NCBI RefSeq assembly: GCF_014696065.1
Contig: NZ_JACJPL010000026.1
Coordinates: 558,001-622,000, forward strand
DNA length: 64,000 nt
Source of the DNA: Leptolyngbya sp. FACHB-261
Lineage (GTDB): Bacteria; Cyanobacteriota; Cyanobacteriia; FACHB-261
Direction: 5' to 3'
Shown: in pieces, positions 26,457 to 31,838 of the stretch
How positions within the stretch are numbered: position 1 is the stretch's first letter
Layout of the letters: each line of letters starts with the position of its first letter
The notes under the pieces: generated by a model
Databases searched by the model: none
Told to the model about the DNA's origin: nothing
Seen by the model: only the letters and a program-made list of their open reading frames with translations
Position numbers and translations under genes: made by a program

Positions 26457-27083
26457 TCAAACCACCGGTTGAGCCAGACTGCTCAAGAAATCAGCGGTGT
26501 TGGTTAGGGTTGCTCCTGCGTTAGACATCTCAGCTAAAGCTGCCTGTGCCCCCGCCTGAGTAACGCCTTCGACCGCATCGGTTAGCAAATAGACTGGCCA
26601 ATTGCGGGCTCTCAAACCCAGCACTGCTGCTTTGACACAGTAATCGGTTGCAACACCCGCGACTGCCCAAGCCGTAATGCCTTGGTTGCGGTAAGAGTCT
26701 AGTAAGCGTTCGGTTAAGGGACTATCCCAAACATCGAAACTTTGCTTGGCAATCACTAATTCCCTTGGTAAATCGCTCAATGGCTCGGGAAGCGCTGCGT
26801 CAAAATTCAACAATGGACCGTTGAGTTCTGCCTCAGGAACGTAAGCAGCTCCAGCTGTACCTGCCAGACAATGGGCAGGGAAACCATGGTTAGCAAACTC
26901 AACATCATCGGGAGCATGAGCGTCAGCCGATCCGACAATGGGCAAGCCTAAGCTACGCGCTGCCCTCAGTAACTCAGCCCAGACTGGCAGCAACGCCTCT
27001 GCCCCTGGCACCGACAATGCGCCAGTAGCTCGCACGAAATCATTTTGCGGATCGATCAGTAGCAGTCCCACACTGACAGTCAT
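26457..27083 (-). CDS. pncA: Nicotinamidase (isochorismatase superfamily)
   Basis: 208 residues. Hydrolyses nicotinamide to nicotinate, the first step of nicotinamide salvage. The catalytic triad is visible: Asp in LLLIDPQNDFV, Lys in LVIAKQSFDVWDS, Cys in GVATDYCVKAAV. Metal ligands for the nicotinamidase subgroup appear in GSADAHAPDDVEFANHGFPA (Asp, His, His). Divergent from the NAD genes pncB-nadD-nrtR-nadE, with two NrtR-like operators in between, so it belongs to the same regulon. The start ATG at 27083 lies 12 bp from operator 1. Confidence 0.9.
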   Translation of the reverse strand: MTVSVGLLLIDPQNDFVRATGALSVPGAEALLPVWAELLRAARSLGLPIVGSADAHAPDDVEFANHGFPAHCLAGTAGAAYVPEAELNGPLLNFDAALPEPLSDLPRELVIAKQSFDVWDSPLTERLLDSYRNQGITAWAVAGVATDYCVKAAVLGLRARNWPVYLLTDAVEGVTQAGAQAALAEMSNAGATLTNTADFLSSLAQPVV

Positions 27084-27095
27084 AGCGACCCTCTG

Positions 27096-27116
27096 TTATG
27101 GTTATTGCAACTATAA
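27096..27116. promoter_or_regulatory. Candidate NrtR operator 1 (pncA side)
   Basis: A 21-bp imperfect palindrome, TTATGGT-N7-ACTATAA, with a GT-N7-AC core. It lies 12 bp upstream of the pncA start codon, where a repressor would block transcription or translation. It has the same right half as operator 2 at 27227. From memory, NrtR sites share the GT-N7-AC core, which this pair meets. Confidence 0.7.
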
Positions 27117-27226
27117 ATCATCAGCTTTGTGTTGGTCAAGATTTTGAGCCATGCTTCAAAAAATGATTAATCATAGCTATCCACAACCCAGCTTTAAGTA
27201 GAAAAAACAAGTAATCACCCGTTGAT

Positions 27227-27247
27227 TTTTAGTAAGTTCGACTATAA
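27227..27247. promoter_or_regulatory. Candidate NrtR operator 2, over the pncB promoter
   Basis: TTTTAGT-N7-ACTATAA, 21 bp, GT-N7-AC core; the right half is identical to operator 1. It overlaps TATAAT (27243-27248), a perfect -10 box 54 bp before the pncB ATG, with TTGATT (27222-27227) as a possible -35 at a short 15-bp spacing. Binding here would occlude RNA polymerase, as expected of NrtR repression of NAD salvage genes. Confidence 0.75.
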
Positions 27248-27301
27248 TGAGGTGAGCCAGAGACGTGGATTCGCTTTACCTTAGTCAACTGCTAAGACCC
27301 T

Positions 27302-28687
27302 ATGAACACTGTCACAAGTGCTACACCAATATCCCAGTCTCAGGTGCCGTCTCTGCTTGTCAGCCCAGACCACTACGGTCTGTTGACAGACTTGTATCAG
27401 TTGACGATGGGAGCGTGCTACGCCGGTGAAGGCCTTGACCAGAAGTGGGCCAGCTTTGAGCTAACTGTGCGCAAACTGCCAACAGACCTGGGGTATTTGA
27501 TTGCGATGGGGCTGACCCAAGCCATTGAATATCTGCAACAGCTGCGATTTACCCCAGAGCAGATCAGCGCCCTGCAAGCAACCGGTCTGTTTGAGCGTGC
27601 CCCTGAGCGTTTTTGGGAACTGCTGAGACAGTGCCGTTTTACAGGGGATGTCTGGGCTGTACCAGAAGGCACCGCTGTCTTTGCCCATGAACCTCTGTTG
27701 CGGGTTGAGGCCCCACTCTGGCAGGCGCAACTGGTTGAGACTTATCTTCTCAACGCGATCAACTATCAGACGCTGGTTGCAACTCGGGCTGCCAGGCTTC
27801 GGGATGTTGCTGGTCCCGAGGCTACCTTGTTGGAGTTCGGCTCCCGACGAGCCTTTGGTCCTCAAGCTGCGGTTTGGGCAGCGCGGGCCGCTTTGGCGGG
27901 GGGGCTTGATGCCACCTCAAACGTCCTGGCCGCTTTGGAACTGGGACGCAAACCGGCGGGCACAATGGCCCATGCCTTAGTTATGGCAATAACTGCTTTG
28001 GAAGGGAATGAACAGGAGGCGTTTGAGGCATTTAGCCACTATTTCCCTGGTGCGACCCTGCTGATCGACACTTATGATCCCCTAGTGGCAGCCCGAACCC
28101 TGGCCGCGCGAGCCAGAGAGGGTTTTGTGCTAGGGGGAGTGCGCTTAGACTCAGGTGATTTAGTGGAGTTGTCACGGTCGCTGCGCGAAATTTTGCCCCC
28201 TGAAACTAGCATCTTTGCCAGTGGCGATTTAGATGAGTTCGAAATTCTGCGGCTGCGACAGGCAGGCGCTTGCATTCAAGGCTACGGCGTTGGCACTCGT
28301 CTTGTGACAGGATCACCTGTTAATGGGGTCTACAAGTTAGTGGAAATCGAGGGGATTCCGGTGATGAAGGAGTCAATGGGCAAGCTCACCTATCCCGGTC
28401 GCAAGCAAGTCTTCCGTCGCCTGACTTCTGAAGGGATTGAGGACAGACTGGCGCTGGCAGAGGAAGCAGCTCAGCCCCAAGAGCAACCTCTCCTAGAACA
28501 GGTGCTCCAGGGCGGTAAGCTTGTGCGTCCTTTAGAAGCGTTAGTTGCCATTGCTCAACGCACTAGAGCTTCAGTTGAGGTCTTGCCCGAGAAGGTGCGC
28601 CAGATCCGAGAACCTGTGACTGTGGAGGCTCGGCCCTCGGCAGCGTTACAGACGCTCGTAAACCAAACTCGCCGCGTTCCCGCCTAA
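27302..28687 (+). CDS. pncB: Nicotinate phosphoribosyltransferase
   Basis: 461 residues. Converts nicotinate, PRPP and ATP into nicotinate mononucleotide. Begins with HYGLLTDLYQLTMGACYAGE, the family N-terminus; then FELTVRKLPTDLGYLIAMGL, FGSRRAFGPQAAVWAARAAL, AGTMAHALVMAI, LIDTYDPLVAA and GVRLDSGDLVELSR, carrying the conserved substrate and phosphate-binding residues. First gene of the pncB-nadD-nrtR-nadE operon, with an NrtR-like site overlapping its -10. The last 60 residues (EQPLLEQVLQGGKLVRPLEA) resemble the C-terminus of bacterial long-form PncB. Confidence 0.93.
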   Translation: MNTVTSATPISQSQVPSLLVSPDHYGLLTDLYQLTMGACYAGEGLDQKWASFELTVRKLPTDLGYLIAMGLTQAIEYLQQLRFTPEQISALQATGLFERAPERFWELLRQCRFTGDVWAVPEGTAVFAHEPLLRVEAPLWQAQLVETYLLNAINYQTLVATRAARLRDVAGPEATLLEFGSRRAFGPQAAVWAARAALAGGLDATSNVLAALELGRKPAGTMAHALVMAITALEGNEQEAFEAFSHYFPGATLLIDTYDPLVAARTLAARAREGFVLGGVRLDSGDLVELSRSLREILPPETSIFASGDLDEFEILRLRQAGACIQGYGVGTRLVTGSPVNGVYKLVEIEGIPVMKESMGKLTYPGRKQVFRRLTSEGIEDRLALAEEAAQPQEQPLLEQVLQGGKLVRPLEALVAIAQRTRASVEVLPEKVRQIREPVTVEARPSAALQTLVNQTRRVPA

Positions 28688-28751: not shown

Positions 28752-29345
28752 ATGAGTGTCATGCCCCAAACCATCGCTCTGTTTGGAACCAGCGCCGATC
28801 CACCCACGATTGCTCATGGCGAAATCGTGGCTTGGCTCGCTGATCACTTCGATCGGGTCGCGGTTTGGGCTTCTGATAACCCTTTCAAGCAACACCAAAC
28901 CTATCTACGCCATCGCTTGCATATGCTGGAGTTGTTGCTCAGCGACCTGCAACGGTCAAACGTGCAACTAGAACCAGATTTAGGCCATCCCCGCGCCCTG
29001 ATTACAGTGCAACGGGCGAGAGAACGCTGGCCAGACGCTCACTTAACTCTGGTGATTGGCTCTGACCTAGTGGCTCAACTGCCGCGCTGGTACTGCGTGG
29101 AGGAGCTACTGATGCGTGTTCAGCTTTTGATTGTGCCCCGCCCCGGCTATCAGTTGCGAGCAGCGGACCTGGCGGCGGTGCAAGCCTTGGGCGGACAATA
29201 CTGGATTGCAGAACTGACCGGGTTACCCGTTTCCTCGACAGCGTATCGTGAGGGAGACAGGGAGGCAGGGGTCAGTGCCCCGGTCCAGGCGTATATCGAA
29301 CAGGAGCAGTTGTACTCATGCCAGGACGTGGCAGTTGTGACCTGA
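28752..29345 (+). CDS. nadD: Nicotinate-nucleotide adenylyltransferase
   Basis: 197 residues. Adenylates nicotinate mononucleotide to deamido-NAD. The nucleotidyltransferase start IALFGTSADPPTIAHGEIVA is the cyanobacterial variant of the GxFDPxHxGH motif; VIGSDLVAQLPRWYCVEELL follows, then LPVSSTAYREGDREAG, the ISSTxxR-type ATP site. An upstream ATG three codons later may be the alternative start. It overlaps nrtR by 28 bp, so translation of the two is coupled. Belongs to the NAD operon. Confidence 0.88.
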   Translation: MSVMPQTIALFGTSADPPTIAHGEIVAWLADHFDRVAVWASDNPFKQHQTYLRHRLHMLELLLSDLQRSNVQLEPDLGHPRALITVQRARERWPDAHLTLVIGSDLVAQLPRWYCVEELLMRVQLLIVPRPGYQLRAADLAAVQALGGQYWIAELTGLPVSSTAYREGDREAGVSAPVQAYIEQEQLYSCQDVAVVT

Positions 29346-30064
29346 GCGCGAATGCTTTGCAGGGAAGCCTCGCAGATTTCAAAGTAGGGGTAGACAACGT
29401 CATTTTTTCAGTTGATATCGTTCTCAATCGCCTGCTTGTGTTGCTAGTCATGCGCGATGAGCCACCCTTTCTCAACCAGTGGTCGCTACCTGGAACTCTG
29501 GTGCGTCATGGAGAGTCGCTGGAGGACGCTGCCTACCGAATTTTGTCTGAGAAGATTCGCGTTCGCAACTTGTATTTGGAGCAGCTTTACACCTTTGGTG
29601 GGCCTGGCCGAGATCCAAGGGAAGAGCCAAATAGCTACGGGATACGTTATCTCTCGGTCAGCTATTTTGCCCTGGTCCGTTTTGCTGAGGCTGAATTAAT
29701 CGCCAATGGTGTCAGTGGCATTGCCTGGTATCCCGTGAGCCAGGTTCCTCAACTTGCCTTCGACCACAATCGGCTGTTGCAATACGGGTATAAGCGGCTG
29801 CGCAACAAACTTGAATACAGCCCGATCGCCTTTGATGTCCTGCCGGAAAAATTTACCTTGAGCGATCTCTATCAGCTTTACTCAACGGTATTGGGAGAAA
29901 ATTTCTCGGACTATTCCAACTTTCGAGCACGTTTGCTCAAGCTCGGTTTTCTAGAAGAAACGGGTGAAAAAGTGTCAAGAGGGGCGGGTCGCCCTGCCAG
30001 CTTATATCGCTTTGACTCCGAAGCTTTTGCCCCCTTCAAAGATAAACCGTTGGTATTTGTTTAG
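29318..30064 (+). CDS. nrtR: NrtR, Nudix-related regulator of NAD metabolism
   Basis: 248 residues in two parts. Residues about 22-150 form a Nudix fold (LVLLVMRDEPPFLNQWSLPG), but the box reads GTLVRHGESLEDAAYRILSE-KIRV: the REx(x)EE part is R-I-L-S-E-K, so the second catalytic glutamate and the glycine are lost. This is typical of NrtR, where the domain senses ADP-ribose or NAD metabolites instead of hydrolysing. Residues about 165-248 make a winged helix (FTLSDLYQLYSTVLGENFSD, FRARLLKLGFLEETGEKVSR). It is in an operon with pncB, nadD and nadE; matching GT-N7-AC sites are in the pncA/pncB gap. Confidence 0.9.
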   Translation: MPGRGSCDLSANALQGSLADFKVGVDNVIFSVDIVLNRLLVLLVMRDEPPFLNQWSLPGTLVRHGESLEDAAYRILSEKIRVRNLYLEQLYTFGGPGRDPREEPNSYGIRYLSVSYFALVRFAEAELIANGVSGIAWYPVSQVPQLAFDHNRLLQYGYKRLRNKLEYSPIAFDVLPEKFTLSDLYQLYSTVLGENFSDYSNFRARLLKLGFLEETGEKVSRGAGRPASLYRFDSEAFAPFKDKPLVFV

Positions 30065-30149: not shown

Positions 30150-31838
30150 ATGAAACTGGCAATTGCGCAACTCAATCCAACCATTGGCGATCTAGCAGGT
30201 AATGCGCGGCAGATTCTTCGGGCGGCTCAGGCAGCTGCAGCTCAGGGAGCAACTCTGCTGCTCACACCCGAGCTGTCGTTGTGCGGTTATCCGCCGCGTG
30301 ATTTACTACTCGATCCCAGTTTCGTGGCCGATTGTCAGGCCACTCTAGAGCAGCTTGTTGCTGAGTTCCCTGCTGCATTGACGGGCCTCATTGGCACCAT
30401 TGAATTCAATCCCGCAGCGGAGCAGGCAGGGGGTAAGCCATTGTTCAACAGTACTGCGCTAGTTGAGCGCGGCAAAATTCGTCAACTCTTTCACAAACGC
30501 CTGCTGCCGACCTACGATGTCTTTGATGAAGATCGTTATTTCGAACCGGGCCACCAGCCTAATATTTTCACGCTAGATGGCATCAAGATTGGTGTCACTA
30601 TTTGTGAGGATTTGTGGAACGATGACCAGTTTTGGGGCAAACGCCTCTATCCTCACAATCCGATTGAAGATCTGGCTAAACATGGAGTTGATGTGGTCGT
30701 CAATTTATCGGCTTCGCCCTATAGTGTTGCCAAGCAAAAGCTGCGAGAGTCGATGCTGCACTACACCGCAGTTCGCTTTCAATTGCCAGTGATTTATGTG
30801 AACCAGATTGGTGCGAATGATGATCTGATTTTTGATGGTCACAGTGTTGCTTTTAATCGGCAGGGTGAGGTTGTGGCTCGGGCCCAGGGATTTACCGTCG
30901 ATTTACTGAACCTCGAACTGGATCCGGTCAAGCGCGATTTACCATTGGGTGCCTTGCATCCCCTACCGGAATGCGAGGACGCGGAGATCTGGCAAGCGCT
31001 CGTTTTGGGCCTTCGCGACTACACACACAAGTGTGGTTTCAAGAACGTAGTGGTTGGCCTCAGCGGGGGGATCGACTCGGCGTTGACCGCCGCAATTGCC
31101 GCAGAGGCGTTGGGACCGGAGCAGGTGATAGGTGTGCTGATGCCATCGCCCTACAGCTCCGACCACTCGGTGAAGGATGCACTGGATCTGGCTAAGAATC
31201 TGGGTATCGTCACACACACGCTGCCTATTGCTCCCCTGATGCAAGGTTTTGAGACGGCACTCAGCGGCGTCTTTGCTGGAACCAAGCCAGGTATCGCTGA
31301 AGAGAATATCCAGTCCCGAATTCGGGGCAATTTGCTGATGGCTTTGTCTAACAAGTTTGGCTATCTGCTGCTGACAACTGGTAATAAATCGGAACTCGCA
31401 GTGGGTTATTGCACCCTCTACGGCGACATGTGCGGCGGGCTGGCAGTAATTTCAGATGTGCCCAAAACTCGGGTCTACTCCCTCTGCCGCTGGCGCAATC
31501 AACAGTCTTTGGTGATTCCAGAGCATGTGCTGACCAAAGCCCCTAGCGCCGAACTCAAACCCGATCAGGTGGATCAAGACTCACTGCCAGCCTACGAAAT
31601 ACTCGACGACATTTTGCAACGGCTGATTGATGCCCATGAGGCTCCGGCCCAAATCGTTGCCGCTGGTCACAATCCAGATACGGTTGCCCAAGTGGCTCAA
31701 TTGGTCGCCCGCGCTGAATTCAAACGTCGTCAGTCTCCACCCGGTCTTAAGATTACCGATCGGGCCTTCGGCTCTGGTTGGCGCATGCCCATTGCTGCCC
31801 GTCGCACCACCAGCCCGGCCCCTTCTCACCAAGCTTGA
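30150..31838 (+). CDS. nadE: Glutamine-dependent NAD+ synthetase
   Basis: 562 residues in two domains. The N-terminal nitrilase-fold glutaminase has Glu in TPELSLCGYPPRDLL, Lys in FHKRLLPTYDVFDEDRYFEP, and Cys near 153 in GVTICEDLWNDDQFWG. The C-terminal synthetase has the ATP PP-loop GLSGGIDSALTAAIAAEALG near residue 305, and TTGNKSELAVGYCTLYGDM for deamido-NAD. It converts deamido-NAD to NAD using glutamine nitrogen. Follows nrtR by 85 bp and the lipoprotein gene begins 5 bp after it. Length fits the bacterial glutamine-dependent class. Confidence 0.95.
   Translation: MKLAIAQLNPTIGDLAGNARQILRAAQAAAAQGATLLLTPELSLCGYPPRDLLLDPSFVADCQATLEQLVAEFPAALTGLIGTIEFNPAAEQAGGKPLFNSTALVERGKIRQLFHKRLLPTYDVFDEDRYFEPGHQPNIFTLDGIKIGVTICEDLWNDDQFWGKRLYPHNPIEDLAKHGVDVVVNLSASPYSVAKQKLRESMLHYTAVRFQLPVIYVNQIGANDDLIFDGHSVAFNRQGEVVARAQGFTVDLLNLELDPVKRDLPLGALHPLPECEDAEIWQALVLGLRDYTHKCGFKNVVVGLSGGIDSALTAAIAAEALGPEQVIGVLMPSPYSSDHSVKDALDLAKNLGIVTHTLPIAPLMQGFETALSGVFAGTKPGIAEENIQSRIRGNLLMALSNKFGYLLLTTGNKSELAVGYCTLYGDMCGGLAVISDVPKTRVYSLCRWRNQQSLVIPEHVLTKAPSAELKPDQVDQDSLPAYEILDDILQRLIDAHEAPAQIVAAGHNPDTVAQVAQLVARAEFKRRQSPPGLKITDRAFGSGWRMPIAARRTTSPAPSHQA

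Follow-up and report, generated by a model that had tools for sequence, protein, structure and literature searches.

Two predicted NrtR operators between a rare pncA and the pncB-nadD-nrtR-nadE cluster of Leptolyngbya sp. FACHB-261

Two 21-bp palindromes lie between the divergent genes pncA and pncB in a 64,000-nucleotide stretch of the genome of Leptolyngbya sp. FACHB-261 (hereafter the window), and both are very probably operators of the NrtR repressor encoded in the same locus (Table 1). A sequence-only reading of this DNA had proposed as much, and the proposal is now supported by the fit of the two sites to a motif conserved in other cyanobacteria and by the way in which such sites track NrtR across genomes. 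Control of NAD genes by cyanobacterial NrtR is already known; the local feature is the recruitment of pncA, a rare gene that carries its own predicted operator, a consensus match, over a good putative promoter.

Gene cluster, palindromes and promoter elements

The pncA gene on the minus strand is divergent from pncB, nadD, nrtR and nadE on the plus strand. The end of nadD and the start of nrtR share 28 bp, and gaps of 64 bp and 85 bp separate pncB from nadD and nrtR from nadE, a spacing that is consistent with a single transcript running from pncB to nadE, as we infer. PncA contains the residues of the nicotinamidase triad and metal site (D11, D54-x-H56, H71, K113 and C149). It was aligned with the nicotinamidase structure 1ilw over residues 6-192, with D11, D54, H56, H71 and C149 in register and K113 assigned by eye, and its score against the NCBIfam nicotinamidase model was 74 bits, short of the cut-off of 174.

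Table 1. Positions of the genes, predicted operators and putative promoter elements in the window
Feature	Position	Strand	Basis
pncA, nicotinamidase-like	26457..27083	-	PF00857 102 bits; PDB nicotinamidase 1ilw E 8e-19
NrtR operator 1 (predicted, pncA side)	27096..27116	.	TTATGGT-TATTGCA-ACTATAA (TTATGGT-N7-ACTATAA); exact cross-genome consensus match
pncA promoter (putative)	27110..27139	-	TTGACC-N18-TATAGT; 10/12 consensus positions; consensus match only
NrtR operator 2 (predicted, pncB side)	27227..27247	.	TTTTAGT-AAGTTCG-ACTATAA (TTTTAGT-N7-ACTATAA); one consensus deviation, A at position 5
pncB -10 (putative)	27243..27248	+	TATAAT by sequence reading; overlaps operator 2
pncB, nicotinate phosphoribosyltransferase	27302..28687	+	NF006696 600 bits, cut-off 503
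nadD, nicotinate-nucleotide adenylyltransferase	28752..29345	+	NF000842 249 bits, cut-off 167
nrtR, Nudix-related repressor	29318..30064	+	NUDIX, NrtR_WHD and AraR_C domains; degenerate Nudix box
nadE, glutamine-dependent NAD synthetase	30150..31838	+	NF010588 760 bits, cut-off 479

The coordinates and letters of both sites given in the sequence-only reading are exact to the base, as are the common right half ACTATAA and the GT-N7-AC core that it described. In each palindrome the arms are complementary at 6 of 7 pairs, and the two centres are 131 bp apart. The remaining details of the layout also hold: exactly 12 bp (27084-27095) separate operator 1 from the pncA start, TATAAT overlaps the right half of operator 2, and the regulator said to lie two genes downstream is the second gene after pncB. 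The putative -10 of pncA falls inside operator 1, and this overlap with the promoter-like TTGACC-N18-TATAGT places both operators over a putative -10. For pncB, a good -35 at standard spacing was not found, and its TATAAT was not listed in the promoter scan.

Within the genome of 6.95 Mb, the pattern TTWTRGT-N7-ACTATAA, which was fitted to operators 1 and 2 themselves, occurs with zero mismatches only at these two sites. We also scored the window with a matrix built from 48 distinct sites of relatives, from which the window was left out. By this matrix the two operators rank first and second among all window positions on both strands, with scores of 25.2 for operator 1 and 18.4 for operator 2, the next independent position reaching 8.3. 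In simulations under an AT-rich intergenic model, the chance per position and strand is below 5e-8 for operator 1 (0 in 20 million simulated) and about 5e-7 for operator 2. A weak match within nadE (30719, 2 mismatches) was treated as chance.

The lower score of operator 2 raises the question of whether it has decayed, such that only or mainly operator 1 works and either operator 1 or both dimers jointly control both genes. The A at position 5 is rare, being seen in 2 of the 48 relatives' sites, and the unsymmetrised score falls just below that of the weakest relative (19.6). Yet the site remains far from a chance match by the simulation above, its symmetrised score of 19.3 is inside the relatives' range (minimum 17.2), and it is placed before pncB, as in relatives. 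We regard decay of the pncB-side site as improbable, though less so than the other alternatives; with both palindromes taken as operators, the degenerate operator 2 may still be weaker than operator 1.

The motif and its regulon in other cyanobacteria

With the window nrtR as query, 80 named cyanobacterial nrtR loci were fetched, most of which keep the order pncB-nadD-nrtR-nadE. A near-consensus GT-N7-AC palindrome is present no more than 450 bp upstream of pncB in 60 of the 63 loci with a pncB start, and the 48 distinct pncB-upstream sites give the consensus TTWTGGT-N7-ACYATAA. The GT-N7-AC core is invariant in these 48 sites, which were chosen via that core, and the longer arms are conserved as well. 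The 915 kb surrounding the 80 nrtR genes contain 60 exact motif matches, of which 55 are before pncB and the other 5 before nadD, against 0 for the reversed control pattern. The scan of orthologous pncA/pncB intergenic regions suggested in the sequence-only reading thus came out well for the pncB side, with GT-N7-AC in 48/48 sites and within a motif to which the two window sites conform, while for the pncA side no orthologous region was found. Because no close pncA occurs in other photosynthetic cyanobacteria among the 386 genomes searched, orthology offers no check of operator 1, whose support comes from its fit to the motif and from an analogous layout in another genus, described below.

What did not hold is the idea of GT-N7-AC as a general hallmark of NrtR, since the operator in M. 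smegmatis reads GTTTTCGA-N7-TCGAAAAC (PMC6800001), and operator motifs differ widely across the family (PMC4666351, PMC6800001). The sequence of a cyanobacterial NrtR operator was not found in the literature searched, with Rodionov et al. 2008 outside that search. An NrtR-motif site is also present some 20 bp ahead of nadD in G241, G085 and G409, three genomes from a single genus (L240, L241, L243, site at 1501), which suggests that there the operator stayed with nadD-nrtR.

The exact motif was then searched across 59 whole genomes, comprising the window's own and 58 relatives. In the relatives, 82 of 90 distinct exact sites precede NAD genes (nadA 40, pncB 38, nadD 3, nadE 1); two of the other eight precede a nicotinamidase-like hydrolase gene, one sits close to the end of its contig, and the others seem unrelated. 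In the window genome the exact consensus occurs at operator 1 and at one other locus, which lies 38 bp ahead of nadA (L179:3978-3998, equivalent to G000:C31:856977-856997). Its other one-mismatch sites (L003, L005, L120-L123) adjoin unrelated genes and were treated as chance, and genome-wide matches with up to two mismatches show no excess over the reversed control. With NrtR called present at E <= 1e-60, motif and NrtR agree in 55 of the 59 genomes, 44 having both and 11 neither (Fisher P ~2e-8, a value that overstates independence because the species are related). The 4 discordant genomes are two that bear NrtR and have no exact site, and two fragmented ones that have sites and in which NrtR was undetected.

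These patterns bear on two further alternatives. Given that the operators were assigned from sequence and that motifs vary so much in the NrtR family, a different regulator could be imagined to bind the palindromes; however, motif and NrtR share their pattern of presence and absence, nrtR sits inside the regulated cluster, and the NrtR recognition helix (D198-Y-S-N-F-R203), identical in 111/111 cyanobacterial sequences, is invariant where the motif is, all of which makes another regulator very improbable. Least credible is that the palindromes, each of which overlaps a TATAAT-like or TATAGT-like hexamer, are look-alike -10 regions conserved for RNA polymerase with no repressor involved, for the conserved pattern has two-fold symmetry and takes in TTWTGGT, the right half starts ACC in 25 of the 48 distinct relatives' sites and so breaks TATAAT, and the matches are limited to NAD genes and follow the presence of NrtR.

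The NrtR protein, its likely effector and the proposed control

The window NrtR exceeds the cut-offs of both the NUDIX (47 bits) and NrtR_WHD (82 bits) models, and scores 164 bits against the AraR_C Pfam model. Against NF050029 (ADPR responsive repressor NtrR, equivalog) it scores 120.5 bits (E 8e-35), below the cut-off of 400, and so counts as a homologue of that narrower group and not as one of its equivalogs. Among solved structures it matches SoNrtR with an E of 3e-26, with BtAraR being closest (E 4e-36). Its Nudix box has undergone three changes, RE to RI, EE to EK and the final G to R. With key Nudix residues lost and the E-to-K change invariant in 111 cyanobacterial NrtR sequences, Nudix catalysis by this protein is unlikely.

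PMC4666351 lists which residues of SoNrtR contact ADP-ribose and which of BtAraR contact arabinose, and reports that ADP-ribose suppresses DNA binding by the NrtR of Synechocystis and Shewanella. In the window NrtR, R46, K79 and R101 are equivalent to SoNrtR contacts with ADP-ribose and are near-invariant in the cyanobacterial NrtR sequences compared. The SoNrtR contact N43 is replaced by E48, at a position that is variable in cyanobacteria, and the N-terminal adenine contacts of SoNrtR do not align with the window protein. The nearest solved sequence is that of AraR, yet the SoNrtR-type K79 and R101 make ADP-ribose a likelier effector than arabinose. Bacteroides AraR (5bs6, 5ddg, 5deq; PMC4666351) has the same fold and responds to arabinose; despite its AraR_C match, the window protein does not fit the AraR subfamily in its DNA contacts or its pocket. 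At the positions of the SoNrtR phosphate-contact lysine and arginine, AraR has Leu67 and Gly89 where the window protein has K79 and R101. The AraR DNA contacts K179, R180, N181 and K184 correspond to Y199, S200, N201 and A204, so that the base contacts K179, R180 and K184 become Y, S and A.

In the proposed control, an NrtR dimer would occupy each 21-bp site with one half-site per subunit. Since each operator overlaps a putative -10, bound NrtR would block RNA polymerase at pncA and at pncB-nadD-nrtR-nadE, and by repressing the latter NrtR would hold down its own production. Consumption of NAD would cause ADP-ribose to accumulate and bind the inactive Nudix domain, releasing NrtR, upon which salvage from nicotinamide to NAD (PncA, PncB, NadD and NadE) and de novo synthesis (nadA) would rise together. 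Binding by the window NrtR, repression as opposed to activation, and ADP-ribose as the effector are the parts of this scheme that we infer.

The NrtR proteins of Synechocystis and Shewanella oneidensis (Rodionov et al. 2008, as cited in PMC4666351) are the closest known systems. Like the window protein, they (3gz5, 3gz6, 3gz8) are Nudix and winged-helix repressors of NAD genes, with a palindromic operator, a degenerate Nudix box and release by ADP-ribose, the last presumably holding for the window as well; the predicted window targets differ in adding a divergent pncA with its own operator. NrtR repressors released by ADP-ribose that act on NAD salvage genes including pncB are also found in Pseudomonas aeruginosa (PMC11535050) and Streptococcus sobrinus (PMC12735969), where the gene sets are otherwise different.

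Probable recruitment of pncA and a candidate nicotinamidase of relatives

Of the 386 genomes of the phylum that were searched, 7 carry a close homologue of pncA, counting the window's own. Those of the remaining six, all outside the class of the window genome, are 42-46 percent identical to it, which makes a gain of pncA by horizontal transfer likely. In the genomes of 39 relatives nothing exceeded about 30 percent identity to pncA, and among plasmid records the matches were only distant, at about 35 percent or less.

An isochorismatase-like hydrolase of about 350 residues is encoded in 41 of the 59 genomes and is absent from the window genome. It conserves D64, D112-x-H114, H192, K226 and C278, the nicotinamidase residue pattern, while its scores against Pfam and NCBIfam are marginal and a profile search of solved structures returned no relative. 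In G177, G332 and G405, which belong to one genus, the gene and pncB are transcribed divergently and two motif sites separate them; by analogy, this parallel two-operator layout supports the idea that a nicotinamidase-type gene placed divergently before pncB can acquire its own NrtR site. In G395 and G402 the hydrolase start has a single motif site no more than about 60 bp away (loci of the five genomes: L197:4366-5430 on the plus strand, L200, L201, L212:1444 and L132:152). At the remaining large-hydrolase loci examined, a motif site near the gene was not found, and NrtR control of the hydrolase is thus not general. In some relatives a second NrtR-like paralogue, of about 43 percent identity, adjoins the hydrolase gene (L203:721-1371, L221:38-685). 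A tentative reading, which we put forward as a possibility somewhat short of even chances, is that the large hydrolase is the usual cyanobacterial nicotinamidase, sometimes regulated by NrtR, and that in the window lineage it was replaced by the acquired PncA at the same divergent two-operator position.

The cyanobacterial NrtR motif and its targets (nadA and pncB-nadD-nrtR-nadE) are usable for annotation, and the large hydrolase becomes a candidate nicotinamidase for most cyanobacteria. In the window itself, a rare salvage gene would have been wired into an existing NAD-sensing loop via an operator gained over its promoter.
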